From Paracoccus aurantiacus (GTDB lineage: Bacteria; Pseudomonadota; Alphaproteobacteria; Rhodobacterales; Rhodobacteraceae), in contig NZ_VOPL01000003.1 of NCBI RefSeq assembly GCF_007993065.1, positions 310,001 to 374,000 of the forward strand: a stretch of DNA of 64,000 bases, given 5' to 3'. A program made the position numbers and the translations under genes. Of this stretch, positions 21,301 to 56,393 are shown piece by piece. The notes under the pieces were generated by a model. The model was given only the letters and a program-made list of their open reading frames with translations. It searched no databases and had not been told where the DNA came from. Numbering within the stretch: the stretch's first letter is position 1; the number at the start of each line of letters is the position of its first letter.

Positions 21301-21327
21301 AGTGTCATTCCTTCCTTGATGCAAACA

Positions 21328-21356
21328 GGCCCGGCCGCAAATTCCGCGGCCGGGCC
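21328..21356 (-). ncRNA. Intercistronic mRNA hairpin after the binding-protein gene
   Basis: A perfect 11-bp GC stem (21328-21338 with 21346-21356, loop of seven) lies between the stop codon of the binding-protein gene and the ATPase gene. No T run follows on the minus strand, so it looks like an RNA-stabilising or partial attenuating structure that raises binding-protein expression, rather than a terminator. Confidence 0.55.
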
Positions 21357-21366
21357 CTCGGCTGCC

Positions 21367-22584: not shown

Positions 22585-22607
22585 GTTCAGGACTCCCAGT
22601 TGGTTGA

Positions 22608-23480
22608 TTATTGTTTCACCGCGCCTGCGGTCAGCCCGCCGACGAGATAGCGTTGCAGGAAGAAGATCAGGATCAGCGCGGGCGCGATGCCGACGAAGCT
22701 GGCGGCCATAAGCTCGTTCCAGATCACCTCTTGCTTGCCGAAATAGGCGAACAGCCCGATCGGCAGCGGCATGTATTCGGTCTTGGAGTTGAAGGTCAGC
22801 GCAAAAACGAATTGCTGAGAATAGGCGCCGATGAAGGTCATGATCGCCACGACGATGATGCCCGGCCGCGCGATGGGCAGGATCACCCGGCGGAAGGTAT
22901 AGAACTGGCTCGCGCCATCCATATAGGCGGCCTCGTTCAGCTCTTTCGGGATGCGCATCATATAGGTGCGCAGCAGCCAGATCGCCGCCGGGATCAGGAA
23001 GGCCGCACCGGGGACAATCATCGCCCAATAGGTGTTCAGCATCCCCAGCGTCCGCATCAGCCGGAACAGCGGGATCAGCAGCACCGCGCCCGAGAACATG
23101 CTGACGGCCAGAAACGCCGCCAGCACCAGACCCATGCCGCGAAAGCTGAACCGCGCGAAGGCATAGGCCGCGGGCACCACCAGCAGCAGCACGATGACCG
23201 TGGCGATGGTCGAGATCAGGAAAGAGTTGAAGATATAACGCGCAAAGCCCGGCACACTTTCCCACATGGTAAAATAGGCTTTGAACGACCCATTTTCCGG
23301 CCAGAAGCTGTAGGGCGTCGAGAAGAGCTGCGACAGCGGCTTCAGGCTGACCAGAAAACCCTCGATAAAGGGGGACAGCATGAAGAACAGGAAGACGAAG
23401 ATCCCGGCATAGATGCCGATGATTTCCCACCAGCGATAGCGGTCGATCATGGGCGTGTCGTCATTGCGAAACAGGGCCAT
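22608..23480 (-). CDS. Sugar ABC transporter permease, MalG type
   Basis: A 290-residue inner-membrane protein with six predicted helices, the first at about residues 13-40 (WWEIIGIYAGIFVFLFFMLSPF cannot be anything but a membrane segment). The cytoplasmic EAA loop reads EAAYMDGASQFYTFRRVILP near residue 187, which docks onto the ATPase. It pairs with the MalF-type permease encoded nine bases upstream and precedes the binding-protein gene by 23 bases. Function follows from the family and the operon. Confidence 0.93.
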   Translation of the reverse strand: MALFRNDDTPMIDRYRWWEIIGIYAGIFVFLFFMLSPFIEGFLVSLKPLSQLFSTPYSFWPENGSFKAYFTMWESVPGFARYIFNSFLISTIATVIVLLLVVPAAYAFARFSFRGMGLVLAAFLAVSMFSGAVLLIPLFRLMRTLGMLNTYWAMIVPGAAFLIPAAIWLLRTYMMRIPKELNEAAYMDGASQFYTFRRVILPIARPGIIVVAIMTFIGAYSQQFVFALTFNSKTEYMPLPIGLFAYFGKQEVIWNELMAASFVGIAPALILIFFLQRYLVGGLTAGAVKQ

Positions 23481-23489
23481 GTCTCTCTC

Positions 23490-24374
23490 CTATGCCTTAT
23501 CCATGGTGTGGAGGCGCCGTGTGACGCGGAAATAGGCAAGGCAGAACAGCGACAGGAACAGGCAGATGACCACTGCGCGTGCCGCACCCTCGCCGTATTT
23601 CTTGGACCCGATAGCGACCTGATAGGTGTCGATGATCATGGTCGTGGTCTGCCCGCTGGGACCGCCCTGCGTCAGGATCCAGATGATGTCGAAGCTGTTG
23701 AAGGTCGCAATCAGCGACAGCATGGACATGGTGATGATCGCCGGCGCCATCAGCGGCAGGGTGATGCGGCGAAAGCGCGTCCAGCGGCTGGCGCCGTCGG
23801 TCCATGCAGCCTCGTACAGATCCTTGGGGATGGCCTGCATGGCCGCCAGGAAATAGATCGTCACCATCGGCACACCGATCCAGACATCGGTGATGATCGT
23901 GGCCCAGAAGGCGGAGCCGCCATAGGCCAGAAACGCCACCGGCCCATCGACGATGCCAAAGCGCTGCAGCAGGCCGGAGATCATCCCGAACTGGCCGTTA
24001 TACATCCAGCCCCACATGAAGATGCCGATGGCCATGGGCACGATCCACGGCGGCATGGTCAGGATTCGGAACAGGTTGCGCCCCGGAACGGCCGCGTTCA
24101 GCATGACCGCCCCGCACATTCCGATGACCATTTTCAGCAGGACGGAAAAGAAGGTCCAGATGAAGGTCCGGGTAATGACGGTCAGGAACGTCTCGTTGAA
24201 GATCTTTTCATAATTGCGCCAGCCGACATAGTTCACCGTCTTGCGCAGCGAGGCGTCAGTAAAGGACAGGCGGAACGTCTCGACCAGCGGCCAGGCCACG
24301 ATAATCAGGACATAGATGATCGCCGGGGCCAGCAGCAGCCAGGCGAATACCCATGCAGATCGGGAACTTGTCAT
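23490..24374 (-). CDS. Sugar ABC transporter permease, MalF type
   Basis: A 294-residue inner-membrane protein with about six helices. Its EAA loop is EAAWTDGASRWTRFRRITLP near residue 187. It forms a heterodimer with the following MalG-type permease. Its start codon shares a base with the stop codon of the upstream oxidoreductase gene, so translation is probably coupled. It lies second in a five-gene operon (oxidoreductase, two permeases, binding protein, ATPase). Confidence 0.93.
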   Translation of the reverse strand: MTSSRSAWVFAWLLLAPAIIYVLIIVAWPLVETFRLSFTDASLRKTVNYVGWRNYEKIFNETFLTVITRTFIWTFFSVLLKMVIGMCGAVMLNAAVPGRNLFRILTMPPWIVPMAIGIFMWGWMYNGQFGMISGLLQRFGIVDGPVAFLAYGGSAFWATIITDVWIGVPMVTIYFLAAMQAIPKDLYEAAWTDGASRWTRFRRITLPLMAPAIITMSMLSLIATFNSFDIIWILTQGGPSGQTTTMIIDTYQVAIGSKKYGEGAARAVVICLFLSLFCLAYFRVTRRLHTMDKA

Positions 24375-25531
24375 CAGGCGGCCCTCCGCAGCAACGCCTC
24401 GTCATAGCGGTCCCAGATCGGCGCGAGGTCGACCACCCTGCCCTGACGGCGCGCATCGTCCATCGCCATTGCAAGAATGCCGGCTTCCAGCGCGTCCAGC
24501 GGCGAAACCGGCAGAGGGCCGCCACGCATCACATGGTCCACCACTTCCGCCGCCATCTTTTCGTCTGCGCCATAATGCTGCGACAGCGCGGTTGCCTGAT
24601 ATTCGCGTTCCACGACGCGGGCCTCGCTCATCACGTCGGTCACGTTCAGGAACCCGCGAATGAAGTCGCCCTCGGCCTGCCCTTTCGTGCCAAAGACCGC
24701 GAAACGCCGGAACTGGTCGGGCGCATTCAGATTGGTGTGGAAATTCATGCCGACGCCATTGGCATATTCGACGATTGCGACCTGATAATCGATAATATCG
24801 GCATCGGTATCGAAAACCTTGTCGGTTCCGTTCCAGCCAGACGGCTTGCTGTGGAACAGGCTCACATCATTGACGCCCTCAAGACGGGGATCGTTTTCCG
24901 GGATGAATGTCTTGCGCCCGCCAAAGCTGGCCACGCGCGCAGGCCGCGCCCCGATCAGCCCGTTATACAGGTCGAGGTCGTGGCAGCACTTTTCCAGCAT
25001 GAAGCTGCCCGACCATTTTTCGTAACGCCGCCAGTCGCGCATGAAAAACGCGCCGTGATAGGGAAAGATATGCTCGGCCGCTTCGACCGAGACGATCTTG
25101 CCAAGCTGCCCCGCATCACGCGCCGCCAGCAGGTCGCGATACAGCGGCGCATAGCGCAGCACCAGCCCGACCAGCAGACGGTCATGGCCATACCGGCCCA
25201 TCAGGCGGGCCAGCTCGACCGTCTGGTCGATCGTCGCGACGATCGGCTTCTCGGAGAAGATCTTGTCGCCCGCTTCCAGTCCCAGCCTGATATGGTCGAG
25301 ATGCATGTGATTGGGAGAGCCGATCATCAGCAGGTCATAGCCACCTGCCTTCACCAGATCCTCGGCCGACGCATATCGCTTGCCGGGCGAAATACGGTGT
25401 TCTTCAAGCGTGGCAAGGCCAGCGGGTTCCGGATCGAAATACCCGACGATCTGAAAATCCGGGTCCATTTCCTGGAACACGTGGCCAAGATAACCCAGTC
25501 GATATCCAAGACCGATAATCGCGACTTTCAT
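24374..25531 (-). CDS. Gfo/Idh/MocA family oxidoreductase
   Basis: A 385-residue NAD(P)-dependent enzyme. The N-terminal Rossmann domain opens with VAIIGLGYRLGYLG, unusual because the common GxGxxG is written GLGYRLG. The family EKP motif is present in IFSEKPIVATI near residue 100. The C-terminal dimerisation domain includes HDLDLYNGLIGARPARVASFGG. Members oxidise, reduce or epimerise sugar derivatives, and some are retaining glycosidases. The first place in the transport operon suggests it processes the imported (amino) sugar. The start has GGGGAAGG upstream. Two copies of a putative RpiR operator lie in the 130-base promoter region. Confidence 0.88.
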   Translation of the reverse strand: MKVAIIGLGYRLGYLGHVFQEMDPDFQIVGYFDPEPAGLATLEEHRISPGKRYASAEDLVKAGGYDLLMIGSPNHMHLDHIRLGLEAGDKIFSEKPIVATIDQTVELARLMGRYGHDRLLVGLVLRYAPLYRDLLAARDAGQLGKIVSVEAAEHIFPYHGAFFMRDWRRYEKWSGSFMLEKCCHDLDLYNGLIGARPARVASFGGRKTFIPENDPRLEGVNDVSLFHSKPSGWNGTDKVFDTDADIIDYQVAIVEYANGVGMNFHTNLNAPDQFRRFAVFGTKGQAEGDFIRGFLNVTDVMSEARVVEREYQATALSQHYGADEKMAAEVVDHVMRGGPLPVSPLDALEAGILAMAMDDARRQGRVVDLAPIWDRYDEALLRRAA

Positions 25532-25547: not shown

Positions 25548-25633
25548 GAAATTCTTTTTCTTCAAAATGCGTGAAACATGACGTTCAGTCAAGAAATATC
25601 CGCATTTTTCTGACGTCGGTGTAATCAATTTTC
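25548..25633 (-). promoter_or_regulatory. Promoter region of the ABC operon with two RpiR-like operator copies
   Basis: GAAATTCTTTTTC (25548-25560) and GTAATCAATTTTC (25621-25633) are 73 bp apart. Between them, on the minus strand, TTGACT (25592-25587) and CATTTT (25569-25564) form a -35/-10 candidate with a 17-bp spacer. The proximal copy overlaps the expected transcription start. The motif matches those at 30847, 30921, 39342 and 39414. Confidence 0.6.
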
Positions 25634-25662: not shown

Positions 25663-26577
25663 TCACCGCTGATCCTGCCGGAACGCCAGAATCGCTGCGC
25701 CGACAAGTCCCGGCTCGATCCGGCATTCAGCAGGAACAATCAGCGGGCGGGTGATTCGGCGCAAGATTCGTGCGCGGGTCGCGCGGTCGAGGCCCGCGAT
25801 CAGCGGCGCGGAATTCGACAGACCGCCACCAACCGTCATGACGTCCGCGCCGATCAGGTTCTGTATCATCGAAAGCGGTCCTGCCAGCAATTCCGTCCAG
25901 ATTTCGATGGTGCGCATTGCGTTGGGGTTGCCCGCCTGCCAGCCCTCGACAATGGCGCGGCTGTCCAGGGATTCGTTGTCGTGAAGGTGGCGGTGCAGCG
26001 CCTCCATCCCGCGCGCCCCGCAAAGCGTGTCCAGACAGCCGGACTGGCCACAGCCGCAGGCAAGCACGGGCAGGCTGACCGGCGGCTGACCGAGGGTGCG
26101 CTGCGCCACAGGTCCATGCCCCCACTCGCCCGCAAAGCCACCGCTGGCGTTTATCAGCTCTCCGCGGATGACCAGCCCGCCGCCGACCCCGGTTCCCAGG
26201 ATCAGCCCAAGCACAACGTCATGCCCGCGGCCCGCCCCTGTCACGGCCTCGGCAAGCGCGAAGCAGTCCGCATCATTGGCCAGATCGACAGGCAGGCCGA
26301 GTTCGCCTTCCAGTTCCGCATGCAGCGCGCGTTCGTTCAGGCACGGGATATTCGCAACCTGCGCCCGCCCGGTATCGGGGTCGATCACGCCGGCGATGGA
26401 CACAGCGACGCGGCGTGGCGGTTGCGGCGCATCCTGCAGCGCCTGTTTCAACACCGCCATGAATGCATCGCGGTCACGGCCCGGTGTGGGGCGGGTTCCC
26501 GTCGTGCGGATGTCGTCGACGGCATGAGCATGCGCGATCTTGATCGCGCTGCCGCCGATATCGAAGCAAAGGATCAC
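25663..26577 (-). CDS. nagK: ROK family sugar kinase, probable N-acetylglucosamine kinase
   Basis: A 304-residue ROK kinase, the length of E. coli NagK. The phosphate loop is FDIGGSAIKIA at residues 5-15, the catalytic Asp lies in LANDADCFALAEA, and the ROK zinc motif appears as ACGCGQSGCLDTLCGARG near residue 175. It should phosphorylate N-acetylglucosamine at O6, making the substrate of NagA, encoded immediately upstream with a four-base overlap. It is the last gene of the NTF2-M81-PLP-nagA-ROK operon. Glucose or N-acetylmannosamine kinase activity is possible, but nagA coupling favours GlcNAc. Confidence 0.88.
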   Translation of the reverse strand: MILCFDIGGSAIKIAHAHAVDDIRTTGTRPTPGRDRDAFMAVLKQALQDAPQPPRRVAVSIAGVIDPDTGRAQVANIPCLNERALHAELEGELGLPVDLANDADCFALAEAVTGAGRGHDVVLGLILGTGVGGGLVIRGELINASGGFAGEWGHGPVAQRTLGQPPVSLPVLACGCGQSGCLDTLCGARGMEALHRHLHDNESLDSRAIVEGWQAGNPNAMRTIEIWTELLAGPLSMIQNLIGADVMTVGGGLSNSAPLIAGLDRATRARILRRITRPLIVPAECRIEPGLVGAAILAFRQDQR

Positions 26578-27722
26578 GTGATCTGCCCCGAGCCCTGCCC
26601 GACACGCCGACCGCGTGACCAGACCTCGCCCACCGCGATGTCCGGGGTCAGGGTCAGAAAATCAGCCCGCGCACCGGGGCGAAGATGGCCGCGATCCGGC
26701 AGGCGCATGGCCTCTGCCGGGAAAAGCGACGCGAGCTGCAATGCCTCTGCCAAGGGCAGCCCCAGGCTGCGATGGACGTAGCGCACCGCGTCGATCAGCG
26801 CGATGTCGGCGCCGGCCAGCGTCCCGTCCGCCAATGTCAGGCGTCCGTCCTTGCGATAGATCCGGCGTCCGTTCAGCGAGAAGCCCTCAAGATCCGTGCC
26901 GATGGTGGACATCGCATCCGAGACGAGGAACATCCGGCCTGGGCCAGCCTTACCGCGCAAGGCCACGCGCATGGCCGCATCATCGACATGAAATCCGTCT
27001 GCGATCAGCCCGGCCCAGACCCGCCCGTCATCCAGCGCGGCGCCGACAAGGCCGGGGGCGCGATGCGCAAGCTGGCTCATCGCGTTGAACAGATGCGTGA
27101 CCATGCGCGCGCCCGCATCGAAGGCCGTTCCGGCGGCAGCGGCGTCGCAATCGCTGTGCCCGAGGCTGACGGTTATGCCCGCATCGGCAAGCGCCGCGAC
27201 CTGTTGAGGGGTAATCGCCTCGGGCGCGACTGTCACGATAAGATGCGGAACCCGCTTCGCCGCGGCGACCAGCAGCCCCAGATCATGTGCGGTCATGGGC
27301 CGGATCAGCGCGGGGTCATGTGTCCCCTTGCGCGAGGCGTCAAGGTGCGGACCTTCAAGATGCAGGCCGATAAGCCCGGTCGCGTCAGACGAGGCCGCGG
27401 CCTCGACCGCGCGGGCTGTCACTTCGGGCGTGTCGGTAATCAGCGTGGCCATGATCCCGGTCGTCCCGCAGGCCATATGCGACGCGCATATCTGCGCGAT
27501 CCCGGATGGCGTCGGGTCGTTATTCAGCAATACGCCACCACCGCCATTCACCTGCAGGTCAATCAGTCCGGGCACGATCCAGCCCGGAACGCGCTTCCCT
27601 TCGGGCAGGCTGGCGGACGCTTCGATCGCATCGACCTTACCGTCGCGAAGGATCAGGGCCGCATCATCGTGCCAGGCATCGCCGTCAAAAATACGCTCTG
27701 CATGAAAAACCGTCTGCTCCAT
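26574..27722 (-). CDS. nagA: N-acetylglucosamine-6-phosphate deacetylase
   Basis: A 382-residue amidohydrolase that removes acetate from GlcNAc-6-phosphate in the cytosol. The metal-site Glu is in HLEGPHLDASRKGTHDP near residue 120. Other active-site segments are LGHSDCDAA, VTHLFNAMSQL (substrate and metal His) and the catalytic Asp in FLVSDAMST. Product GlcN-6-phosphate would go to NagB, encoded near 38.5 kb. It overlaps the ROK kinase gene by four bases and follows the PLP enzyme gene by six. Confidence 0.95.
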   Translation of the reverse strand: MEQTVFHAERIFDGDAWHDDAALILRDGKVDAIEASASLPEGKRVPGWIVPGLIDLQVNGGGGVLLNNDPTPSGIAQICASHMACGTTGIMATLITDTPEVTARAVEAAASSDATGLIGLHLEGPHLDASRKGTHDPALIRPMTAHDLGLLVAAAKRVPHLIVTVAPEAITPQQVAALADAGITVSLGHSDCDAAAAGTAFDAGARMVTHLFNAMSQLAHRAPGLVGAALDDGRVWAGLIADGFHVDDAAMRVALRGKAGPGRMFLVSDAMSTIGTDLEGFSLNGRRIYRKDGRLTLADGTLAGADIALIDAVRYVHRSLGLPLAEALQLASLFPAEAMRLPDRGHLRPGARADFLTLTPDIAVGEVWSRGRRVGQGSGQIT

Positions 27723-27728
27723 CCTGCC

Positions 27729-28817
27729 CTACCACACTGTTCCGCGCGCCAGCAGCGGCTCGACCCGCGTCACGATGCCGTCGCGGTGGAAGACGACCCT
27801 GTCGAACAGGTTCGAGACGACGCAGCAATGGTTCGGCACGATCCTGACCTGCTGGCCGACCTCTGGCGCATCGCCCGCGTGGGGGCCAAGATCGACGACG
27901 GCGTGTTCTTCGGACAGGGCGATAATCCGCGCATCGGGCAACCCCTCTATCGTGCCGTATTCGCTGAAGCCCAGCAAATCCGAGGTCAGCGCCTTCGATC
28001 CCGCGTCAAGCACCGCCCGATCCGGCGTCGGTCGCGACACGACGGTCGCAAGAACGTTCATGGCCAGATCGTCGGGGCCGCATTCGCCCGCGCGCAGCAT
28101 CGCACGATCATTATAGACATAGGTGCCTGCCCGGTACTCGGTCGCTGCAGGCACCAGATGCGCGGACCACAAATCAGGGCTGCCCCCGGTAGAGCGGACG
28201 GGACACTCGATCCCCTGCGCTGACAGAAGCGCCATCGTCTCGGCCAGGAAATCCTGCACCTTTGCCGCGCCACCCGGCGACGGATAAGTCATCAGGCCGC
28301 GGAAAATCAGCCCCGGCACATCGTCGATCAGTGCCGCAAGTTCGGCCGCGTCGGCGGGCGTCTGCACCCCGCATCGCTGCCCGCCCGTATCGCATTCGAC
28401 CATTACATGCAGCCGCTTGCCGGTTTCGAAAACCCCGGCATACCCGGATATCGTCGTGTGGCTGTCGGCACAGACCGTGAGCAAATTCAGCCGGTCGTTC
28501 AGCGCGCGCAGCCGCGACAGACGTTCCGCCCCGAGGATGTTATAGGTGACAAGGATATCGTCGAAACCCGCATCCGCGAAGGCTTCCGCCTCGGTCAGCT
28601 TCTGACAGTTCAGGCCGACAGCGCCGGCGTCAATCTGGAAGCGCGCAACCGAGGCGAGCTTGTGCGTTTTGATATGCGGCCGGAAAATCAGGCCGTGATG
28701 TTCCATATAAGCCTGTGCGCGGGTCAGGTTGTTGGCGAGCCGCGCCTCGTCGATCACCGGCATCGGCGTGATGACATCGGACAGCGGCGCGCCCAGCTGA
28801 GGCCAGGGAAAGGTCAT
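27729..28817 (-). CDS. D-threonine aldolase/D-serine dehydratase-like PLP enzyme
   Basis: A 362-residue fold-type III PLP enzyme with an alanine racemase-like barrel and a D-serine dehydratase-type C-terminal domain. The PLP lysine is K50 in RPHIKTHK. The C-terminal metal site His-x-Cys appears in VPNHCCVVSN. Such enzymes cleave or dehydrate D-beta-hydroxy amino acids (D-threonine, D-serine, D-3-hydroxyaspartate). The ATG at 28817 overlaps the M81 gene stop (ATGA). A D-amino acid enzyme between nagA and an M81 peptidase gene suggests a substrate containing D-amino acids, but the true substrate is unknown. It is a distant relative of BhcC further along the window. Confidence 0.87.
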   Translation of the reverse strand: MTFPWPQLGAPLSDVITPMPVIDEARLANNLTRAQAYMEHHGLIFRPHIKTHKLASVARFQIDAGAVGLNCQKLTEAEAFADAGFDDILVTYNILGAERLSRLRALNDRLNLLTVCADSHTTISGYAGVFETGKRLHVMVECDTGGQRCGVQTPADAAELAALIDDVPGLIFRGLMTYPSPGGAAKVQDFLAETMALLSAQGIECPVRSTGGSPDLWSAHLVPAATEYRAGTYVYNDRAMLRAGECGPDDLAMNVLATVVSRPTPDRAVLDAGSKALTSDLLGFSEYGTIEGLPDARIIALSEEHAVVDLGPHAGDAPEVGQQVRIVPNHCCVVSNLFDRVVFHRDGIVTRVEPLLARGTVW

Positions 28818-30322
28818 GACACATCTCCGAAAGGATATTCGCTGCGCGGCCATATGTCGCTGCGCACAAGTCGGTAAGGATTGGTTGCGGGGTCGTTGGG
28901 ATATGGCTTTCCCGCCGAGCAATAGATGATCTCGGACGCGATCGGCTGGAAGGCGGCATAGAAATGGTTGGTGGATTTGACCACCAGGATGCGCTTCTGC
29001 TCGGGCACGATTCCCATGACCGAGAAAAGCGACGGATCATAGCTTTGGGCGCGCACCGTATTCAGGATTACCTCGATGCCGAGATCTTCGCCCTCGGGCG
29101 TCAGCAGAGCAATGCGCGCCGCAGGACCGAAGGGCACGACACTTTGCCCGAACTGCATCTCTGCCCGAGGGGCGATGCGAAGCACGCGCACCAGCGCATC
29201 GAAGGGCTCTCCGGTCAGGGGTGCGGATTTGCCGCCGAAGCGCAAAAGCAGCTCTGCCCCCTCGCCCGCGACCATACAAAGCTGAACGGCGATAGGGTCC
29301 CATATGGTCCCGACCGCGACGCCCCTTGCGCCCCTCGCGACGAGTTCGCGCAGCAAAACGGTCGCGTCGCCCGCAGTCCCGCCGCCCGGATTATCCCACA
29401 TGTCGGCGATGACGACCGGGCCAGACCGGTCCGATGCCATCGCCTTTTCAACCGCCTCGCGCTCATCAAGTGCGGGCATGATATGCCGCCCGCGATTGGC
29501 ATACAGCGCTGCCCCAAGCTCCTCGGCGATCCGCTGGCCCAGTTCGGCATCATCGTCAGTCACGGCGATCATCCGGGTTCCCATTTCCGGAACATCGCCC
29601 GCCATGAAGCCGTGTATCGCCGAAAGCGACAGCAGCTTCGGCATCTCGGTTTCCAGTCGCATCATCCTGTCGACGAAGCTTCGCATCGGCTCTCGGGAGG
29701 TGGGGAAAACGTCGATCATCCGGCAATCGTAAACCGACATGACCGGCCGCACACGCCCCTCCAGCGCATCGACCGCAATGCGCCAGAGATCCTCGGCACG
29801 TTCGACGAAGTCGGTATGCGGAAACTCCTTGAATGCGACAAAGAAATCGGCGGCGCGGACCCGTTCGGCGGTCAGATGGCTGTGCGGGTCAAGGCTGGCA
29901 CAAAGCAGTACATCCGGCCCGACGATCTGACGGACACGGCTCAACAGGTCGCCTTCGGGGTCAAGATAACCCTGCGCCACCATCGCACCGTGCAGCCCAA
30001 GCACCACGGCATCGACCGGCATCGCCTGTTGCAATTGCTCAAGGATTTCGTCGCGCAGCCCCTCATAAGCGCCGCGCGCGACCAGTCCGGCCGGATCGGC
30101 CCACGCGGCCGTCCCTTCGATCAACTGCCACCCCAGTTCCGCACAGACGCGCCGTCCGACGGTGATTGGCGCGGTGCACAGCGTCGGGGTCGGCGGATGC
30201 TGGCCCGGAGGCGCGTAAAGCGATGCCTCGAACCCCTGCCGGTCAATGACGATCGGCGAGAATGTATTTGTCTCGGTCGCGAGGGCCGCGACAAAGATAC
30301 GTTTTCCACGCGCGCCCGTCAT
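28814..30322 (-). CDS. M81 (MlrC-like) metallopeptidase family protein, copy A
   Basis: A 502-residue member of the M81/microcystinase C family. The N-terminal DUF1485-type domain starts RIFVAALATETNTFSPI. Candidate metal ligands are in SLDPHSHLTAERV and MWDNPGGGTAGDATVLL. The C-terminal MlrC domain ends with the KSTNHFYAAFQPIASEI segment. MlrC cleaves linear microcystin peptides; most family members have no known substrate. The start at 30322 has GGAG upstream. It lies two bases after the NTF2-like gene. A second M81 gene (34703-36154) stands on the divergent arm of the same island. Confidence 0.88.
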   Translation of the reverse strand: MTGARGKRIFVAALATETNTFSPIVIDRQGFEASLYAPPGQHPPTPTLCTAPITVGRRVCAELGWQLIEGTAAWADPAGLVARGAYEGLRDEILEQLQQAMPVDAVVLGLHGAMVAQGYLDPEGDLLSRVRQIVGPDVLLCASLDPHSHLTAERVRAADFFVAFKEFPHTDFVERAEDLWRIAVDALEGRVRPVMSVYDCRMIDVFPTSREPMRSFVDRMMRLETEMPKLLSLSAIHGFMAGDVPEMGTRMIAVTDDDAELGQRIAEELGAALYANRGRHIMPALDEREAVEKAMASDRSGPVVIADMWDNPGGGTAGDATVLLRELVARGARGVAVGTIWDPIAVQLCMVAGEGAELLLRFGGKSAPLTGEPFDALVRVLRIAPRAEMQFGQSVVPFGPAARIALLTPEGEDLGIEVILNTVRAQSYDPSLFSVMGIVPEQKRILVVKSTNHFYAAFQPIASEIIYCSAGKPYPNDPATNPYRLVRSDIWPRSEYPFGDVS

Positions 30323-30324
30323 GC

Positions 30325-30828
30325 TCACTCCGGCAGATGCGGCAAATAGCCAAGGAAACCCGCGATCTTCCAGCGCCCGCCTTCGCAGCGGCACACGTAA
30401 AGCGTCTGCCAGTTCATGCGGTCGGAACTGCCGTCGGTCTTGGCCAGACTGCCGTCGAATTTCTTGCGGACAAGCGCGGTTTCGCCGTCGATCTCGATCT
30501 CCTCCAGCCGGGTTGCCGCGAAAATGCCGTCGCGCGGATTGCCGGCAAATTCACCGGCGTCGCGTGCTGCGGTGAAGTCCTTCGCCTGACGCATCCATTC
30601 ACGGCGATAGGCATCAAGCGTCGGAAATGCGAGCGTGTAGCCCTGCGGGTCGGGCTGGAAATTGCCGCTGAAGCCGGTGAAATTCGTCGCGACAAAGTCA
30701 TCTGCAACCGCTTCCCAATCGGCGCTGACGAAGGCATCAATGTCGCGTGTCACCAACATCTCCCACATCTCGCGGCGATCCGCGTCATCTGGGGCGAACG
30801 GGTTCTGAAAGGGATCGCGAGCTGACAC
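30325..30828 (-). CDS. NTF2/SnoaL-like protein of unknown function
   Basis: A 167-residue protein with the cone-shaped NTF2-like pattern: an N-terminal helix region DRREMWEMLVTRDIDAFVSADWEAVADDFV, a middle part with tyrosines and tryptophans, and C-terminal strands TLYVCRCEGGRWKIAGFLGYLP. It may be a small enzyme or binding protein; I do not recognise a specific role. I favour a GTG start at 30828 with GGAAGG upstream. An ATG at 30864 has no ribosome-binding site and would place the operator-like repeat at 30847 inside the coding region. It is the first gene of the nagA operon. Confidence 0.7.
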   Translation of the reverse strand: MSARDPFQNPFAPDDADRREMWEMLVTRDIDAFVSADWEAVADDFVATNFTGFSGNFQPDPQGYTLAFPTLDAYRREWMRQAKDFTAARDAGEFAGNPRDGIFAATRLEEIEIDGETALVRKKFDGSLAKTDGSSDRMNWQTLYVCRCEGGRWKIAGFLGYLPHLPE

Positions 30829-30846: not shown

Positions 30847-30933
30847 GAAAATAAATTTCTGCATTCTGCGGAATGCGCTAGAATATTCCAAAGAATCATG
30901 CCTAAATGTCAAGCTGAAACGAAAATAAATTTC
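30847..30933. promoter_or_regulatory. Divergent promoter region with two identical 13-bp operator copies
   Basis: The sequence GAAAATAAATTTC occurs twice, at 30847-30859 and 30921-30933, 74 bp apart. A strong -35 (TTGACA, minus strand 30912-30907) with a weak -10 (GAATAT, 30888-30883, spacer 18) serves the minus operon. Between the copies is also a perfect hairpin palindrome GCATTC-TGCG-GAATGC (30861-30876). The region separates the RpiR gene from the NTF2-nagA operon, so it is the likely autoregulatory site. Confidence 0.65.
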
Positions 30934-30944
30934 GGGAGAGAGCT

Positions 30945-31013
30945 GTGAAGCAACGACAGAGGTCACGCGCCGTCAATCTGATCTGCAACGCAGCGCTTGG
31001 ATTTGGCGCATGA
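30945..31013 (+). CDS. Possible 22-codon leader ORF coupled to the RpiR gene
   Basis: A GTG-started frame with GGGAGAGA seven to fourteen bases upstream runs for 22 codons. Its TGA stop overlaps the rpiR ATG in the sequence ATGA. The rpiR ATG itself has no good ribosome-binding site, so translation could depend on this ORF. Whether the peptide is made or matters is unknown. Its predicted sequence is basic (starting KQRQRSR) and resembles no protein I know. Confidence 0.4.
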   Translation: MKQRQRSRAVNLICNAALGFGA

Positions 31014-31921
31014 CGGACGCAAAGCCGAAGGGCGAAGATCAGGGCGCGGTCAATTCGACCGATCTGATCGCGGCGCTGAGCAATGGCGAGGGGCTGGTAT
31101 CTTCGCTGGAACGCAAGCTTGCAGCGGTGATCCTGTCTGACGTGAATTTCGCCACCGCCGCCTCGATCACCGAAATCGCGGCCAAGGCGGGCGTCTCTCC
31201 GCCGACGGTGACGCGGTTCTGCCGCCGTCTCGGCTGTGCGTCCTTTTCGGATTTCAAGGTGCAGTTGGCCAAAAGCGCCTATGTCGGGCTTCGCTATCTG
31301 CATCCCGAAACCATTACCTCGACCCCGGCCGAGGTGGCCGAGGACATCGTGACAAAGGCGCAGAACGCGCTTTTCGAACTGCATCGCGGTCTGGATATGG
31401 CCAGCTTGTCCAGGGCTGCGGAGCTTTTGGCCGGGTCGAGCATGATCTATGCCTTCGGTGCCGGCGGGAATTCGTCGCTGATCGCGAACGAGCTTCAGAA
31501 CAGGTTGTTCCGTCTGGGCTGCCGCATCACGGCATCGACCGATCATGCCTTTAACCTGATGCTGTCCGCCGCGGCAGAGCCGGGCGCGGTCGTCATCGGA
31601 TCGTCGCTCAGCGGCCGAAATACCGAGATCGTGCGCTGCTTCGATCTGCTCCGGGAAAGAGAGATACCGACAATCGCATTGACCCGCGCTGGCTCTGAGG
31701 TCGCGGCGGCGGCTGATATCGTCATCGCGATCGACCTGCCCGAAGGCAAGAACATCTTCCGCCCGACCTCGACGCGCTACGCGTTTCTGGCGGCGGTCGA
31801 TATCCTTGCCAACCTTGTCGCCTATGCCGACCGGGAAAAGTCGCGCCGATTGCTGCGCAGCATCAAGGAACAGCTCGTCAGACACCGCGACGGCGACGAC
31901 CGCCAGCTTCTCGGGGACTGA
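31010..31921 (+). CDS. MurR/RpiR family transcriptional regulator
   Basis: A 303-residue regulator with an N-terminal RpiR-type helix-turn-helix (about residues 25-100, core ITEIAAKAGVSPPTVTRFCRRLGC) and a C-terminal SIS sugar-phosphate-binding domain (about 130-265; IYAFGAGGNSSLIANELQNRL and VIGSSLSGRNTEIVRC). The expected effector is an amino sugar phosphate such as GlcNAc-6-P or GlcN-6-P. It is the first annotated gene of the plus arm of the island, divergent from the nagA operon. The paired 13-bp repeats in its own and two other promoters are the best candidate binding sites. Confidence 0.93.
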   Translation: MTDAKPKGEDQGAVNSTDLIAALSNGEGLVSSLERKLAAVILSDVNFATAASITEIAAKAGVSPPTVTRFCRRLGCASFSDFKVQLAKSAYVGLRYLHPETITSTPAEVAEDIVTKAQNALFELHRGLDMASLSRAAELLAGSSMIYAFGAGGNSSLIANELQNRLFRLGCRITASTDHAFNLMLSAAAEPGAVVIGSSLSGRNTEIVRCFDLLREREIPTIALTRAGSEVAAAADIVIAIDLPEGKNIFRPTSTRYAFLAAVDILANLVAYADREKSRRLLRSIKEQLVRHRDGDDRQLLGD

Positions 31922-32783: not shown

Positions 32784-34688
32784 ATGACCCTGTTTCTGGA
32801 AAACGCATGGATGCCCGATCCTGCGCCTGACGGCACATGGACGGTCACACTGCACAATCTCGGCACCGAGACGCTTGCTGATTTCACGCTTTCGATCACG
32901 ACGATCACCCGGATCATGCCCGAACATGTCATCACGGGCGCGCGGCTGCTTCGCAGGGTCGCGAATTTCCACGAATTTGCCCCGCCAGAGGGTATGCGCC
33001 TTGCCCCAGGTGCGCGCTGGCAGTTCAGTGCCGACGGTTTGTTCCGCATGCCGTTCCATCGCAACGATGCGGCAAAGACGGCATGGATCACGACTGCGGA
33101 TGGGCAGCATCACGAGGTGCAGATCGGCGACCTGATCCGTGCGGATGGCATACCGCCCGCGCCGCCACCCCGCCTGCCCGAGGGACGCCTGACCCTGCCA
33201 TTCGCGCTGCTGCCCTGGCCAAACGAGATCACTGCGACACCCGGCCCCGCCCCGGTATTGATCCACGCCGAAAGCGGCACCTCGGACGATGACCGCCGAC
33301 TGATGCTTTCGGTCGATGCCCTGCATCGGCGCCTGTTCCCTGCGGCGCGCAGCCTGTTCCAGCTTTCGCCCGCGCCGGGAAGCCGCGCGCTGGCATTCGC
33401 CGAAGACCCGGCTCTTCCGGCCGAGGGCTATCGGCTGGATTTCGGCGAAACGATTACGCTGTCGTCCAGCACCGCCAGCGGCCGCCGCTTCGGACTGGTT
33501 GCGCTTGCCCAGATGCTGCATGGCGCGTTCACCGACCCGGCTTTCGCCTTCCCCGCCACGGGGCATATCAGCGACGCGCCCCGCTATGGCTGGCGCGGAT
33601 GCCATCTGGACGTGTCGCGGCATTTCTGGGGGGCCGATCAGGTCAAGCGCGTCATCGACATTCTGGCCTGGTACCGGATGAACCTGTTTCACTGGCACCT
33701 GACCGATGACGAGGGCTGGCGCGCCGAAATCCGGGCCTATCCCGAACTTACCTCGACCGGGGCGTATCGTGGTCACGACTGCGAGGGAATGCTGCCGCAA
33801 CTGGGCGACGGGCCGTCGCGACGCGGGGGGTTCTACACCCAGGACCAGATGCGCGACGTGGTCGCCCATGCCGCAAGCATCGGCATCGAGATCATGCCAG
33901 AGATCGAAACCCCCGGCCACGCGGCTTGCGTTCTTGCCGCGCTGCCGTTCCTTGTTGACCCTGACGAGGTGCCGAACAGCTATGCGCCCGTTCAGGGTTA
34001 TCCGAACAATTCCTGGAATCCGGGCATGCCAGCCACGTTCGAGGTCCTCGACACGATCATCGGCGAGCTGTGCGAAATCTTCCCGTCCAGGCTGTTCCAT
34101 ATCGGCGGCGACGAGGTGGCAGGCAACGCCTGGCTGCAATCACCCAAAGCACGCATTCTCATGCAGCGCGAAGGGCTGGCGGGCACGTTCGAGCTGCAAA
34201 GCTGGTTCGCCCGTCGCGTCAAAGACATGCTGACCCGGCGCGGAAAGATCATGGTCGGCTGGAACGAACTGGCCAATGGCGGCGGTGTCGACCCCGAAAA
34301 TACGGTCCTGATGGCATGGGAAACGCCCCAGGTCGGGATAGAGCTTGCGAGGCAGGGCTATGACGTCGTCATGACGCCAGGTCAGGCCTATTACATGGAC
34401 ATGGCGCAGGGTGCGGACTGGCTGGAAAATGGGGCCGCATGGGCGGGAGCCGTTCCACCCGAAAAGACCTATGATTACGAAGCCGAGGGCGATTTCCCAG
34501 ACGATTTGCGCCCGCAGATGCGCGGCGTTCAGGCCTGTATCTGGTGCGAACATTTCACCACGGATCACTGGTTCAACGATCTCGTGTTTCCGCGCCTGCC
34601 CGCCGTAGCGGAATCCGGCTGGACGCAGAAGGCGGAAAAGGACTGGCAGCGTTTCGCGGCGCAGGTCCGGCTTCATCCTCGGCTGTAG
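32784..34688 (+). CDS. Beta-N-acetylhexosaminidase, GH20 family
   Basis: A 634-residue glycoside hydrolase that removes terminal GlcNAc or GalNAc from oligosaccharides. Residues 1-130 form a beta-rich extra domain, 135-260 the GH20b domain, and 265-620 the catalytic barrel with LFHWHLTDDEGWR. The catalytic Asp-Glu pair is residues 443-444 in HIGGDEVAGNAW. No signal peptide is visible, so it should act in the cytosol on imported oligosaccharides. GAGGGAGG precedes the start. Neighbours (transport, nagA, nagB) support a chitobiose-like or muropeptide-derived substrate. Confidence 0.94.
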   Translation: MTLFLENAWMPDPAPDGTWTVTLHNLGTETLADFTLSITTITRIMPEHVITGARLLRRVANFHEFAPPEGMRLAPGARWQFSADGLFRMPFHRNDAAKTAWITTADGQHHEVQIGDLIRADGIPPAPPPRLPEGRLTLPFALLPWPNEITATPGPAPVLIHAESGTSDDDRRLMLSVDALHRRLFPAARSLFQLSPAPGSRALAFAEDPALPAEGYRLDFGETITLSSSTASGRRFGLVALAQMLHGAFTDPAFAFPATGHISDAPRYGWRGCHLDVSRHFWGADQVKRVIDILAWYRMNLFHWHLTDDEGWRAEIRAYPELTSTGAYRGHDCEGMLPQLGDGPSRRGGFYTQDQMRDVVAHAASIGIEIMPEIETPGHAACVLAALPFLVDPDEVPNSYAPVQGYPNNSWNPGMPATFEVLDTIIGELCEIFPSRLFHIGGDEVAGNAWLQSPKARILMQREGLAGTFELQSWFARRVKDMLTRRGKIMVGWNELANGGGVDPENTVLMAWETPQVGIELARQGYDVVMTPGQAYYMDMAQGADWLENGAAWAGAVPPEKTYDYEAEGDFPDDLRPQMRGVQACIWCEHFTTDHWFNDLVFPRLPAVAESGWTQKAEKDWQRFAAQVRLHPRL

Positions 34689-34702
34689 AAAAGGGACCAC
34701 GA

Positions 34703-36154
34703 ATGCCACGTATCGCCGTGGGCGGCATTCATACCGAATGCTCGACCTATTCGCCGCTTCTGATGCAGATGGAAGATTTCAGGGTTCTGCGCGGCAGCGG
34801 TCTGTTGTCGCACGACCACTTCGCGTTTCTGAGGCAGTTTGATGCCGAATTCGTGCCGCTTCTTCATGCGCGCGCGGTTCCGGGCGGGCCAGTCTCGGCG
34901 CAGGTCTATCAGGCACTGAAGGCGGAGTTTCTGGATCTGCTTCGCGCCGTGTTACCGGTCGACGGGGTTCTGCTGGCCATGCATGGCGCGGTGAAGGTCG
35001 ACGGCATGTTCGACGCCGAGGCGGACTGGATCGGTGCCGTCCGTTCCCTTGTCGGCCCGGATATTCCGGTCGCCGCCAGCTACGACCTGCATGGCAACGT
35101 TTCGGACGGCGTGGTTGACGCGCTCGACATCTTCGCGGCCTACCGCACCGCGCCGCATGTTGATACGCAGGAAACGATGGCCGCGTCTGCCGCGATGCTG
35201 CTGCGCGCGCTGGAATCGGGCGAACGCCCCGGCATCGTTTATGTTCCCGTGCCGCTGCTGCTGCCGGGCGAGCGATCCTCGACCGAGGATGAGCCGGCCC
35301 GCCGCCTTTACAGGGCGCTGCCTGCGCTGGAAGGGCCCACGGTCTGGCGCACGGATCTGATGATCGGCTATGTCTGGGCGGACGAGCCGCGCGCCACCGC
35401 CGCCGCAATCGTGACCGGAACCGATCGTGTCGCGGCCTCGGCCGCCGCAGAAGGGATCGCATCCGAGTTCTGGGCCGCGCGCGACGAATTTGCCTTCGGT
35501 CCCGTGACAGGCCCCCTCGACGAAATGCTGGATATCGCGGAACGGACCTCGACCCGGCCCGTCATCCTTGCCGATAGCGGCGATAATCCGACCGGCGGCG
35601 GCGTCGGTGATCGCGCCGATGTGCTGGCCGCGCTGATCGCGCGCGACTGGTCCGAGGCGATTGTCGCAGGCATCGCGGATCGCCCCGCGACCGAGGCGTG
35701 CTTTGCCGCCGGCGCAGGTGCGCAACTCGACTTGCGGATCGGTGCCAGCCTCGATCCTGCAGGCGTTCGGGTGCAGCTGCGGGCAGAAGTGGTCACGCTG
35801 GATCACGGCGAAAGCCCCGCGGACCGGCAGGCGGTTGTCCGAAGCGGTGGACTGATCGTGGTTCTGGCAGCACGCCGAAGGCCCTATCACGACATTGCGG
35901 ATTTTACGCGGCTTGGCCTTGACCCTTCCGGGACGCGGCTGCTGGTGGTGAAGTCAGGTTACCTTTCGCCGGAACTTGCGCCGCTCGCCAATCCCAACCT
36001 CATGGCCCTGACAGACGGCGCGGTCAATCAGGACATCCGCCGTCTTGAAAACTGCCATCGACCTGCCGGAACCCTGCCCTTCGACAAGCGCGACAGCTTC
36101 ACCGCGACGGCGCGGCCCTCGCGGCGCTTCGCAGGACGAAAGCCCGGCGCATGA
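34703..36154 (+). CDS. M81 (MlrC-like) metallopeptidase family protein, copy B
   Basis: A 483-residue M81 family protein, related to but clearly different from the copy at 28.8-30.3 kb. The N-terminus is RIAVGGIHTECSTYSPLL. Putative metal-site segments are ASYDLHGNVSDGVVDAL and ADSGDNPTGGGVGDRADVLA. The C-terminal domain ends with LLVVKSGYLSPELAP. The ATG at 34703 follows AAAAGGGA; the open frame upstream is a shadow of the hexosaminidase gene. It lies 14 bases after that gene and overlaps the MFS gene by four bases. The substrate is unknown; microcystin degradation is not implied. Confidence 0.88.
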   Translation: MPRIAVGGIHTECSTYSPLLMQMEDFRVLRGSGLLSHDHFAFLRQFDAEFVPLLHARAVPGGPVSAQVYQALKAEFLDLLRAVLPVDGVLLAMHGAVKVDGMFDAEADWIGAVRSLVGPDIPVAASYDLHGNVSDGVVDALDIFAAYRTAPHVDTQETMAASAAMLLRALESGERPGIVYVPVPLLLPGERSSTEDEPARRLYRALPALEGPTVWRTDLMIGYVWADEPRATAAAIVTGTDRVAASAAAEGIASEFWAARDEFAFGPVTGPLDEMLDIAERTSTRPVILADSGDNPTGGGVGDRADVLAALIARDWSEAIVAGIADRPATEACFAAGAGAQLDLRIGASLDPAGVRVQLRAEVVTLDHGESPADRQAVVRSGGLIVVLAARRRPYHDIADFTRLGLDPSGTRLLVVKSGYLSPELAPLANPNLMALTDGAVNQDIRRLENCHRPAGTLPFDKRDSFTATARPSRRFAGRKPGA

Positions 36155-37443: not shown

Positions 37444-38189
37444 ACCGCATCACGCTTGAAATCTGCGTGGACGATGCCGACGGCATACGCGCGGCAGAGG
37501 ACGGCGGCGCGGACCGTATCGAACTTTGCGCCGCGCTTGGCCTTGGCGGGCTGACGCCGTCCGCAGGGCTCGTGGCACTTGCGGCCAGATCGCGCCTGCC
37601 TGTCATGGCGATGATCCGCCCGCGTGCCGGCGCCTTCGTCTGGAGCGCGGATGAGTGCGGCGCGATGCTGGCCGAAATCGACGCCATGCGGGACGCAGGA
37701 CTTGCCGGTGTGGTGATCGGGGCATCCCTGCCCGACGGACGGCTGGATGCGGCCACGCTGGCCAGGCTGATGCGCGCCGCAGAAGGGATGGAGGTCACAT
37801 TGCATCGCGCCATAGACCTTGCGCCAAATCCGGCAGAGGCAATGCAGGTCGTCGCGGGGCTGGGGATCAGACGTGTTCTGAGCTCGGGCGGCGCGCCGAA
37901 TGCGCTTGCGGGATTGGACCGGCTGGCTGCCATGCAGACCGCCGCACCCAACGTCGCGATCATGCCCGGTGGCGGCGTATCGGCCGAGAACGCAGCGCAG
38001 ATCGCGGCGCATCTTCCCGACCTTCAAGAGCTTCACGCCTCTGCTTCTGTCGCGGCAGACCGACCGGCACTGGACAAGGTTGAAAGCTTCGGCTTCCTGC
38101 CGCCTGGCGCAAGGCGCACCGATGCGGGCCGCGTCGCCGCCCTGCGCGCGGCGCTGGATCAGATTGCCCTTTCGCGTCCGCCCGGATGA
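37440..38189 (+). CDS. cutC: CutC family protein
   Basis: A 249-residue TIM-barrel protein of the CutC family. Typical parts are LEICVDDADGIRAAEDGGADRIELCAAL cut short here as IELCAALGLGGLTPSAG, MIRPRAGAFVWS, VTLHRAIDLAPNP and VLSSGGAPNA. The family was named for copper homeostasis, but that role is disputed. Its place as last gene of an amino sugar operon argues for a metabolic role here. The gene starts within the MFS stop codon. Its last 31 bases overlap the 3' end of convergent nagB. Confidence 0.9.
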   Translation: MNRITLEICVDDADGIRAAEDGGADRIELCAALGLGGLTPSAGLVALAARSRLPVMAMIRPRAGAFVWSADECGAMLAEIDAMRDAGLAGVVIGASLPDGRLDAATLARLMRAAEGMEVTLHRAIDLAPNPAEAMQVVAGLGIRRVLSSGGAPNALAGLDRLAAMQTAAPNVAIMPGGGVSAENAAQIAAHLPDLQELHASASVAADRPALDKVESFGFLPPGARRTDAGRVAALRAALDQIALSRPPG

Positions 38190-38938
38190 ACCTCGGCGTA
38201 ATAGTCGCGAAGCTTCAATCGGCTGGCGGCGGCACCATCCAGGATGACGGTCGCCTTGCGATGCATCTGCAACGCCGAGGCGGGGCAGACAGCTGACACC
38301 GGCCCTTCGATCATCGCTGCGGCGGCGTCAGCCTTGTCGTCACCATAGGCCAGCAAAACCACTTCGCCGGCGCGCAGAATGGTTCCGATCCCCATTGTGA
38401 TCGCAAGGCGCGGAACCTGTTCGGGATCGTCGAAGAACCGCGCATTCGCATCCCGCGTCGACCGGGTCAGCGTCTTGATACGCGTCAGCGAGCACAGGCT
38501 CGATGTCGGCTCATTGAAACCGATATGCCCGTTTTTCCCAAGGCCGAGAAGCTGGAAGCCAATATCGCCGGCATCAAGAATGGCCTGTTCATACGCCGCA
38601 GCCTCTGCTTCGGGGTCTGGCGCGTCACCGCGCGGCAGCATGGTCGCGCCAACGGGGAAATCCACGTGGTCGAAAAGCTGTTCCCGCATATAGCGCCAGT
38701 ACGAGCAGGCGTGATCGGGCGCGAGCCCGACATATTCGTCAAGGTTGAAGGACCGTGCGTCGGCGAAGCTGACCCGCCCCGCGCGATGCGCGTCGATCAG
38801 GCGGGTATAGACGGCCTCCATCGTGCCGCCAGTCGCAAGACCAAGCACCGTTTCCGGCCGGGATCGAAGGCGCGCAGCGATCAGGTCGGCGGCATGGTTC
38901 ACCGCCTCGGCGCGATCTTCGTGGATCAGGACCTTCAC
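38159..38938 (-). CDS. nagB: Glucosamine-6-phosphate deaminase
   Basis: A 259-residue enzyme that converts glucosamine-6-phosphate to fructose-6-phosphate and ammonia, the last step of amino sugar catabolism. Family motifs are LGLATGGTMEAVY, the catalytic FNLDEYVGL (Asp), LLGLGKNGHIGFNEP and the active-site His. It overlaps ridA by four bases and cutC by 31 bases at the 3' ends. Together with nagA, the ROK kinase and the hexosaminidase it completes a route from GlcNAc oligomers to fructose-6-phosphate. Control is probably by the paired operator sites before ridA. Confidence 0.96.
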   Translation of the reverse strand: MKVLIHEDRAEAVNHAADLIAARLRSRPETVLGLATGGTMEAVYTRLIDAHRAGRVSFADARSFNLDEYVGLAPDHACSYWRYMREQLFDHVDFPVGATMLPRGDAPDPEAEAAAYEQAILDAGDIGFQLLGLGKNGHIGFNEPTSSLCSLTRIKTLTRSTRDANARFFDDPEQVPRLAITMGIGTILRAGEVVLLAYGDDKADAAAAMIEGPVSAVCPASALQMHRKATVILDGAAASRLKLRDYYAEVHPGGRERAI

Positions 38939-39339
38939 AGCGGCTTCCAGGCGATGGCGTCGATTTCAACCTTGGCATCCACCATAAGCCGCGATTCGAC
39001 CGTCGAACGTGCGGGAGGATTGTCGATGAAATGCTTCTCGAAAACCGCGTTGAAGCTGGAGAAATCGCGGGGATCGTCAAGCCAGCAGGTGACTTTGATG
39101 ACATCTTCCAGCCCGCAGCCGGCAAGCGAGAGAACGGCCTTGATATTCTCGATCACCTGCTCTGTCTGGGCGACGATCCCGCCGGTGACCACCTCGCCAT
39201 TCACGGTCGGCACCTGCCCCGAGACATGGACATAATCACCCGCCCTGACCGCTTTCGCAAAAGGGCGACGCTGGCCGCCAGCCTGCGGATCGGCTGTATC
39301 GTAGCGGATGAGTTGTTTCCCGGTCATTCGATGCACCAT
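38935..39339 (-). CDS. RidA family (enamine/imine deaminase) protein
   Basis: A 134-residue member of the RidA/YjgF/UK114 family with the core HVSGQVPTVNGEVVTGG near residue 40 and VIKVTCWLDDPRDFSSFNAVFEKHF. RidA hydrolyses reactive enamine/imine intermediates made by PLP enzymes; some relatives act in specific catabolic pathways. An ATG at 39327 (starting TGKQLIRYD) is an alternative start; neither has a good ribosome-binding site. It leads nagB with a four-base overlap. An imine-forming partner could be the PLP enzyme of the neighbouring operon (inference). Confidence 0.9.
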   Translation of the reverse strand: MVHRMTGKQLIRYDTADPQAGGQRRPFAKAVRAGDYVHVSGQVPTVNGEVVTGGIVAQTEQVIENIKAVLSLAGCGLEDVIKVTCWLDDPRDFSSFNAVFEKHFIDNPPARSTVESRLMVDAKVEIDAIAWKPL

Positions 39340-39341
39340 AT

Positions 39342-39426
39342 GTTATTTATTTTCTCAGAATGCCGTATATTCTGTGAAAATTCAAGAAACAAGGCGTGAA
39401 TTATCGAAGTAAAGAAAACAATTTTC
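39342..39426 (-). promoter_or_regulatory. ridA-nagB promoter with two RpiR-like operator copies
   Basis: GTTATTTATTTTC (39342-39354) and GAAAACAATTTTC (39414-39426) are 72 bp apart. Between them on the minus strand TTGTTT (39392-39387) and TATACG (39369-39364) form a promoter with a 17-bp spacer. The proximal copy covers the expected transcription start. A second palindrome, CAGAAT...ATTCTG, sits at 39356-39374. Confidence 0.65.
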
Positions 39427-56225: not shown

Positions 56226-56393
56226 CTAATACCTTTTGCTTTATATGAAAGCTAATTTCACATTATGAAAAATTCAACCATTTGACAAGGCTGCATAATC
56301 TTTCTCCCCACGCTACCGCACACCCACAATCAAAAAAATATTCGCGCTCGATGACATCCGTTACCGTTGGGTTAACGATGGAAGGAGACCCCC
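56226..56393. promoter_or_regulatory. bhcR-bhcA intergenic control region
   Basis: The region contains an interrupted palindrome TGAAA-GCTAA-TTTCA (56246-56260) close to bhcR, a second TATGAAA at 56264, and a CGTTA/TAACG inverted repeat (56359-56377) just before the bhcA ribosome-binding site. Any of these could bind BhcR; none has been tested here. Confidence 0.45.

Follow-up and report, generated by a model that had tools for sequence, protein, structure and literature searches.

What is the purpose of a short sequence that stands twice, letter for letter, between a regulator gene and the amino-sugar operon that diverges from it? In Paracoccus aurantiacus, the 13-mer GAAAATAAATTTC occurs in exact copies at 30847-30859 and 30921-30933 of a 64,000-nucleotide stretch (the window), 74 bp apart from start to start, just where an earlier note had placed them. 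That note proposed that one repressor, with the neighbouring RpiR-family protein as candidate, binds both copies and closes a loop, and the sequence patterns described here support that interpretation. The repeat unit is itself a 13-bp palindrome, GAAAWTNAWTTTC, so each site probably takes a dimer, a correction to the earlier note. The features surrounding the two copies are:

30847..30859, plus strand: operator 1 of the rpiR/DUF4440-MlrC-nagA pair, GAAAATAAATTTC, conserved upstream of rpiR
30921..30933, plus strand: operator 2, partner of operator 1 at 74 bp and likewise conserved upstream of rpiR
30908..30913, minus strand: TTGACA between operators 1 and 2, read as the -35 box of a leftward promoter that the proposed loop would enclose
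31010..31921, plus strand: RpiR-family regulator, the proposed binder (above the Pfam gathering scores for HTH_6, at 60.3 bits, and for SIS, at 42.9 bits)
30325..30825, minus strand: DUF4440-like gene, first of the leftward operon (PF14534, E 2e-4, below gathering)
26574..27722, minus strand: nagA, N-acetylglucosamine-6-phosphate deacetylase (TIGR00221 253.1 bits, cut-off 225.65)
25663..26577, minus strand: ROK-family sugar kinase, probably N-acetylglucosamine kinase (best NCBIfam match NF009835, 184.7 bits, below the cut-off of 380)

The start of the DUF4440-like gene at 30825 is our choice, because the longest open reading frame would cover operator 1. The leftward operon runs from this gene through MlrC, a D-serine-dehydratase-like gene and nagA to the ROK kinase. 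Two MlrC/M81-family genes (28817-30334 and 34544-36151) lie in the same island, together with a CutC-family, a D-serine-dehydratase-like and a GH20 hexosaminidase gene. The TTGACA promoter that the earlier note saw between the repeats stands as far as its box goes, read on the minus strand at 30913-30908. The -10 element of that promoter is weak (TGGAAT at 17 bp spacing, by eye), and a promoter scanner did not report the promoter. The scanner gave one other minus-strand site there, at 30949-30922, against 0.2 expected.

Two further control regions of the island had been said to carry pairs of near-copies with spacings of 73 and 72 bp, and both pairs are borne out, at 25548/25621 and 39342/39414. 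Their resemblance, put at 11 of 13 positions, holds for three of the four sites; the one at 25621 (GTAATCAATTTTC) reaches 10 of 13 at best by hand count. The relevant features are:

25548..25560, minus strand: proximal operator of the Gfo/Idh-ABC operon, GAAAAAGAATTTC
25621..25633, minus strand: distal operator of the Gfo/Idh-ABC promoter, GAAAATTGATTAC, 73 bp from the proximal one
25587..25592, minus strand: TTGACT, -35 box of the Gfo/Idh promoter, 32 bp before the proximal operator
24374..25531, minus strand: Gfo/Idh-type oxidoreductase, first gene ahead of the sugar ABC transporter genes
20170-24374: sugar ABC transporter genes, downstream of the Gfo/Idh gene
39342..39354, minus strand: proximal operator of ridA-nagB, GAAAATAAATAAC
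39414..39426, plus strand: distal operator of ridA-nagB, GAAAACAATTTTC, 72 bp from the proximal one
38935..39339, minus strand: ridA-like gene that opens ridA-nagB (TIGR00004 101.4 bits, narrowly under the cut-off of 106.25)
38159..38938, minus strand: nagB, glucosamine-6-phosphate deaminase (TIGR00502 278.1 bits, cut-off 236.9)

Allowing two mismatches, the 13-mer matches five times in the 64-kb window against 0.45 expected (about tenfold; none of 100 shuffles reached five), and the three control regions contain all five. The whole genome (3.79 Mb) holds 26 such matches against eight for a reversed control, so a lone site is nothing unusual. For the paired pattern in its exact form, GWAAN5TTTC-N45-75-GWAAN5TTTC, this genome has matches solely at two of the three island pairs, with one match for the reversed control. 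An RNA element is ruled out, with no Rfam match in positions 20000-42000.

One further element was noticed at the Gfo/Idh promoter. At about 25590-25602, some 40 bp before the proximal operator and just upstream of the -35 box, lies a weak operator-like or UP-like AT element, which recurs upstream of -35 in other Gfo/Idh and MlrC promoters and is a candidate third half-site or UP element. Its mean score with the weight matrix introduced below is far above that of shuffled spacer, but only 16% and 24% of the copies reach 8.

Is the pair kept in relatives? Among 196 relatives screened, 15 further genomes, all of the genus, carry a close RpiR ortholog (62-79% identity), and in 12 of these two consensus-like sites lie 73 bp apart upstream of rpiR; the other three (L046, L050 and L051) each show a single good site, with a weak second one at most. 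Among named genomes, a scan took the best 80 of 442 relatives by RpiR ortholog, comprising 46 Hyphomicrobiales, 32 Rhodobacterales, one metagenome-assembled genome labelled Lysobacterales and one without order. With spacing left free from 20 to 150 bp and a good pair defined by a summed consensus score of at least 21 of 26, 67 of these best 80 loci show a good pair upstream of rpiR, seven a weaker one and six none. The best pair lies at 72-74 bp in 54 of the 67, and at exactly 73 bp in 50. Ten of the 80 repeat genus loci; without them the figure is 47 of 59. The pair is conserved in two orders and its spacing changes chiefly in whole helical turns, as described below, where a lack of conservation would have spoken against the earlier note.

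For pairs elsewhere in the loci, a weight matrix was trained on rpiR pairs preselected at 72-74 bp, after five exact duplicate rows had been dropped. Its spectrum upstream of rpiR is consequently circular, and reliance is placed on the free-spacing scan and on pairs at other promoters. Run over 91 loci (1.86 Mb), the matrix finds 82 pairs outside the rpiR-upstream region at 72, 73 and 74 bp (41, 30 and 11, respectively), with two at 71 and three at 75 bp. Smaller peaks hold 22 pairs (three at 63, 11 at 83-84 and eight at 93-94 bp), and 24 further pairs are scattered over 25-193 bp. Locally shuffled sequence, used as a control, yields no pair at 72-74 bp and, over all spacings, 5.3 pairs per replicate. 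Together with the shuffles of the window, this control rules out a chance origin of the repeats and pairs. The clustered pairs sit mainly ahead of Gfo/Idh, ridA and MlrC genes.

After six loci more than 97% identical had been dropped, 85 remained. At matrix threshold, a pair at 72-74 bp precedes rpiR in 50 of them and is absent there in 35; at least one pair of 60-96 bp occurs somewhere in the locus in 79. By the matrix, the six without a 60-96 bp pair are L046 and five Shinella loci (L117, L129, L143, L146 and L148). RpiR is retained in all of the Shinella loci and an MlrC gene is seen in four of these stretches, but the pair is missing or weak; L143 shows a 62 bp pair under a looser consensus, and several of the six retain one good site by eye. 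These loci possibly represent decay of the paired architecture, which would make them a useful natural loss case.

The spacings also follow the turn of the helix. In the 85 loci, 147 of 160 pairs of 55-105 bp lie within 1.6 bp of 73 + 10.5n, where chance would place a fraction of 0.33, and 13 are off phase; this is the restriction to whole helical turns seen in phase-dependent looping repressors. When 70-76 bp is set aside and each combination of genus and spacing is counted once, 16 of 22 fall in phase (binomial p about 1e-4 for an expected 0.32, the genera not being independent). Five pairs have a spacing of 78 bp: that of L160 has its second site in common with a pair at 72 bp, and those of L150, L151, L152 and L159 tie with 73 bp. 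With these excluded, the fitted helical repeat is 10.39 bp per turn, a consistency check only, as turn numbers were preassigned with 10.5. Further pairs, spaced 63 bp, lie about 2-2.7 kb from ridA in L142 (17729-17804), L153 (18386-18461; both Alloyangia) and L184 (2360-2435; a family genome). They likely mark an extra regulon member with a six-turn loop; the open reading frame beside the pair in L142 looks like a sugar isomerase/epimerase by eye.

Promoter geometry indicates which operator moves. In all 72 Gfo/Idh and MlrC pairs (38/38 and 34/34, respectively), TTGAC precedes the proximal operator by 30-33 bp. Between the distal operator and TTGAC, the main class has 40-43 bp, the 83-84 class 51-52 bp, the 93-94 class 62-63 bp and the single 63 bp case 31 bp. 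Promoter and proximal operator thus move as a unit, with the distal operator shifted by whole turns. These distal shifts, of about -10, +10 and +21 bp, are the signature of a phased loop, as far as sequence can tell. Most of what is known about helical phasing between operators comes from engineered series of spacings; in two promoter families, natural variation seems to have run the phasing experiment itself, with the upstream operator shifted by whole turns and the downstream one fixed.

Mapped on the RpiR tree (from which L155 is missing), the 83-84 state requires one change among the Gfo/Idh rows (38), and two changes account for the 63 and 93-94 states among the MlrC rows (34). Exact length changes number at least 12, 8, 8 and 6 for Gfo/Idh, MlrC, RidA and rpiR, respectively. 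Two apparent whole-turn changes were discounted as mis-assigned: one at rpiR (the 66 bp pair of L132), which by eye overlaps a weaker 73 bp candidate, and one at RidA, where the 63 bp pair is that found about 2-2.7 kb away. With three firm whole-turn events, one at Gfo/Idh and two at MlrC, the phase argument consists of few large and many small changes. It is on this point that an alternative reading may be weighed, in which RpiR binds each site separately and the spacing is no more than a product of common ancestry and a fixed promoter geometry. The species are related and whole-turn changes few, as that reading would have it. Against it, the position of the -35 box within the spacer differs among the four promoter families, the distal sites at Gfo/Idh and MlrC have shifted by whole turns, and the exact length changes are nearly all within 2 bp of phase, which leaves independent binding highly improbable.

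The four families differ in where the promoter lies. None of 29 RidA pairs has TTGAC 30-33 bp before the proximal operator. Among the 50 rpiR pairs at 72-74 bp, 25 have a reverse-strand TTGAC 7-9 bp from operator 2 and 21 have TTGAC on neither strand. Judged from the -35 box, a Gfo/Idh or MlrC promoter would have its sites at about -70 and +3, and the leftward promoter of those 25 rpiR pairs at about -51 and +22. Such positions bear on a second alternative, that of a dual regulator without a loop, in which a distal RpiR dimer would touch RNA polymerase (class I activation) and a proximal dimer would repress alone. A distal dimer that contacts RNA polymerase must be in phase with the promoter, and distal centres near -60, -70, -80 and -91, as estimated here, resemble the in-phase positions of class I activators. 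This role would apply to Gfo/Idh and MlrC promoters, and one RpiR protein, Streptococcus pneumoniae NanR (SpNanR), is described as an activator (PMC12713135). Two independent roles require no fixed inter-site distance in four promoter families, however, and 73 bp is kept at the rpiR pair despite its different placement. Equal spacing at differently placed promoters favours a bridge over separate contacts with RNA polymerase, and activation of this kind is considered unlikely.

Which protein would form such a bridge? Of 125 genomes of the genus, 21 contain the exact pair pattern. It is present in 14 of the 16 with the RpiR ortholog (P. aurantiacus included), 13 times at the island and in G082 on another contig, and in seven of 105 screened genomes without it (spacings of 64, 69, 72, 74, 76, 77 and 83 bp). 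Four genus genomes were outside the RpiR screen, none with a pair-pattern match. NagB regions were examined in 30 of the 40 genomes with a NagB match. With the ortholog and an island-type NagB (at least 76% identity), all eight regions have a pair at 72-73 bp; with the ortholog and a distant NagB, all five lack one at 72-74 bp, though a weak pair is present in one of them at 85 bp. No pair of 55-105 bp occurs in the 17 regions without a known RpiR ortholog, whose NagB proteins are more distant (48-65%) and one of which, G196, was outside the RpiR screen. The pair is kept even where ridA-nagB lies about 0.6 Mb from rpiR (G008) or on another contig (G080). The operator pairs thus appear to follow the RpiR gene. 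AT-rich palindromes are a common operator form and RpiR is a putative binder, so a different regulator could be imagined at the pairs. The 14/16 against 7/105 division, and the 8/8 against 0/17 among NagB regions (with the more distant NagB noted), speak against one, and this reading is rejected as scarcely credible.

A family-wide pair search matched 93 of 394 genomes. Among the matches listed, it mixes in a different, IclR-type promoter (open reading frames in two loci, by eye), and no count is therefore drawn from it. The window has such a promoter at 55389-57584, between a divergent IclR-type regulator and an aminotransferase (by eye), presumably comparable to BhcR/BhcA from the beta-hydroxyaspartate cycle. 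This promoter carries a GAAAN5TTTC site of its own (56247) as well as TTTTTCATAATGTGAAA-like repeats. Other promoters of this IclR type show matches spaced 72-73 bp in many family genomes, again among the matches listed.

The regulator has the RpiR/MurR family layout of an N-terminal HTH_6 and a C-terminal SIS domain, and its HTH motif VSPPTxTRFCR is found in 87 of 91 loci. It is not identified as HexR, scoring 159.1 bits against a cut-off of 296 (NF008451). Its nearest PDB chains are 8ju9 and 8k3b, which we take to be RccR, although the entries themselves do not say so. Tetramers of RpiR proteins are known from crystals. In these, the effector sits at the dimer-dimer interface (PMC12713135). 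When the SIS domain is aligned to SpNanR, three of four phosphate contacts are kept: S155, S199 and S201 align with SpNanR S135, S179 and S181, and N204 replaces T184.

From these patterns we infer that an RpiR tetramer bridges both sites, forming a loop over the promoter that represses until an amino-sugar phosphate binds, and this is judged probable. One RpiR dimer would sit on each 13-bp palindrome through its HTH domains, and two dimers joined via their SIS domains would span the pair. The core promoter would then lie within a closed loop of about 73 bp, or seven turns. Closure at about 63, 83-84 or 94 bp would work as well, because the sites stay on one helix face. At Gfo/Idh and MlrC, with the proximal site about at the transcription start and the distal one at about -70, a closed loop would block or trap RNA polymerase, and GlcNAc-6-P or GlcN-6-P in the SIS domain would open it. 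Loops this short cost much bending energy, which counts against a loop. A broader conjecture, tentative and rather doubtful, is that RpiR/SIS tetramers are phase-dependent micro-loopers family-wide, the interface-bound sugar phosphate controlling loop closure and not DNA affinity. If the proposed mechanism is true, nearly every promoter of the regulon would form a seven-turn loop, and the natural six-, eight- and nine-turn variants would provide a series for tight looping in cells.

How does this arrangement compare with known systems? The earlier note knew of no described RpiR operator of this architecture, which was too strong. In Pseudomonas, RccR, also an RpiR-family regulator, binds two short palindromes in one promoter, that of aceE: they are 15 bp long and 68 bp apart, with apparent cooperativity and DNase I hypersensitive bands between them that were taken as bending (PMC5489143). 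The same layout of two palindromes about seven turns apart around a promoter is found here. Unlike here, the RccR pair occurs at one promoter of its regulon only, the other RccR sites being single 28-bp palindromes; its motif is TGTAGT/ACTACA, its ligand KDPG, and evidence of phase was not seen in the sections of PMC5489143 drawn on. The RccR motif TGTAGT-N3-ACTACA differs from GAAAWTNAWTTTC; the P. aurantiacus genome has no RccR-type pair, and that pair pattern occurs in none of 398 genomes of the phylum.

Other RpiR proteins share parts of the design. Escherichia coli MurR and Vibrio vulnificus NanR are likewise repressors with two adjacent sites, and a MurR tetramer is proposed to bridge its sites (PMC12713135). 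Unlike here, only 17 bp separate the MurR sites, which take up 47 bp together, and those of V. vulnificus NanR adjoin over about 107 bp; as described in PMC12713135, neither has a seven-turn spacing. SpNanR matches the proposal in having an effector-bridged tetramer for which looping was proposed, and its operator core, GAAAGTACTTTT, resembles the palindrome here; it differs as an activator with distributed single sites and ManNAc-6-P as effector (PMC12713135). The lac repressor is also a tetramer that bridges two operators with strong phase dependence, tested in cells from 57.5 to 155.5 bp, but it belongs to the LacI family, with an unrelated fold, a natural spacing of 92 bp and an engineered spacing series (PMC1762422).

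In Proteobacteria, nagA and nagB are also controlled by NagQ, NagC and NagR, which are GntR, ROK and LacI proteins, respectively; the NagQ motif is a tandem repeat, unlike here (PMC5343134). A NagQ regulon is ruled out, since NagQ belongs to the GntR family and the regulator here is an HTH_6-SIS protein. The part of PMC5507952 consulted holds nothing on this RpiR regulator, and no description of this Rhodobacterales/Hyphomicrobiales amino-sugar regulon was found in the open-licence literature on RpiR regulators.

In summary, as the RccR two-site promoter had already been described, the system here is a regulon-wide variant of it. What looks new is the phased pair at nearly every promoter of the regulon, conserved in two orders. 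It offers a concrete looping model for RpiR proteins, and assigns a putative regulator and operator to the amino-sugar regulon of Rhodobacterales and Hyphomicrobiales.
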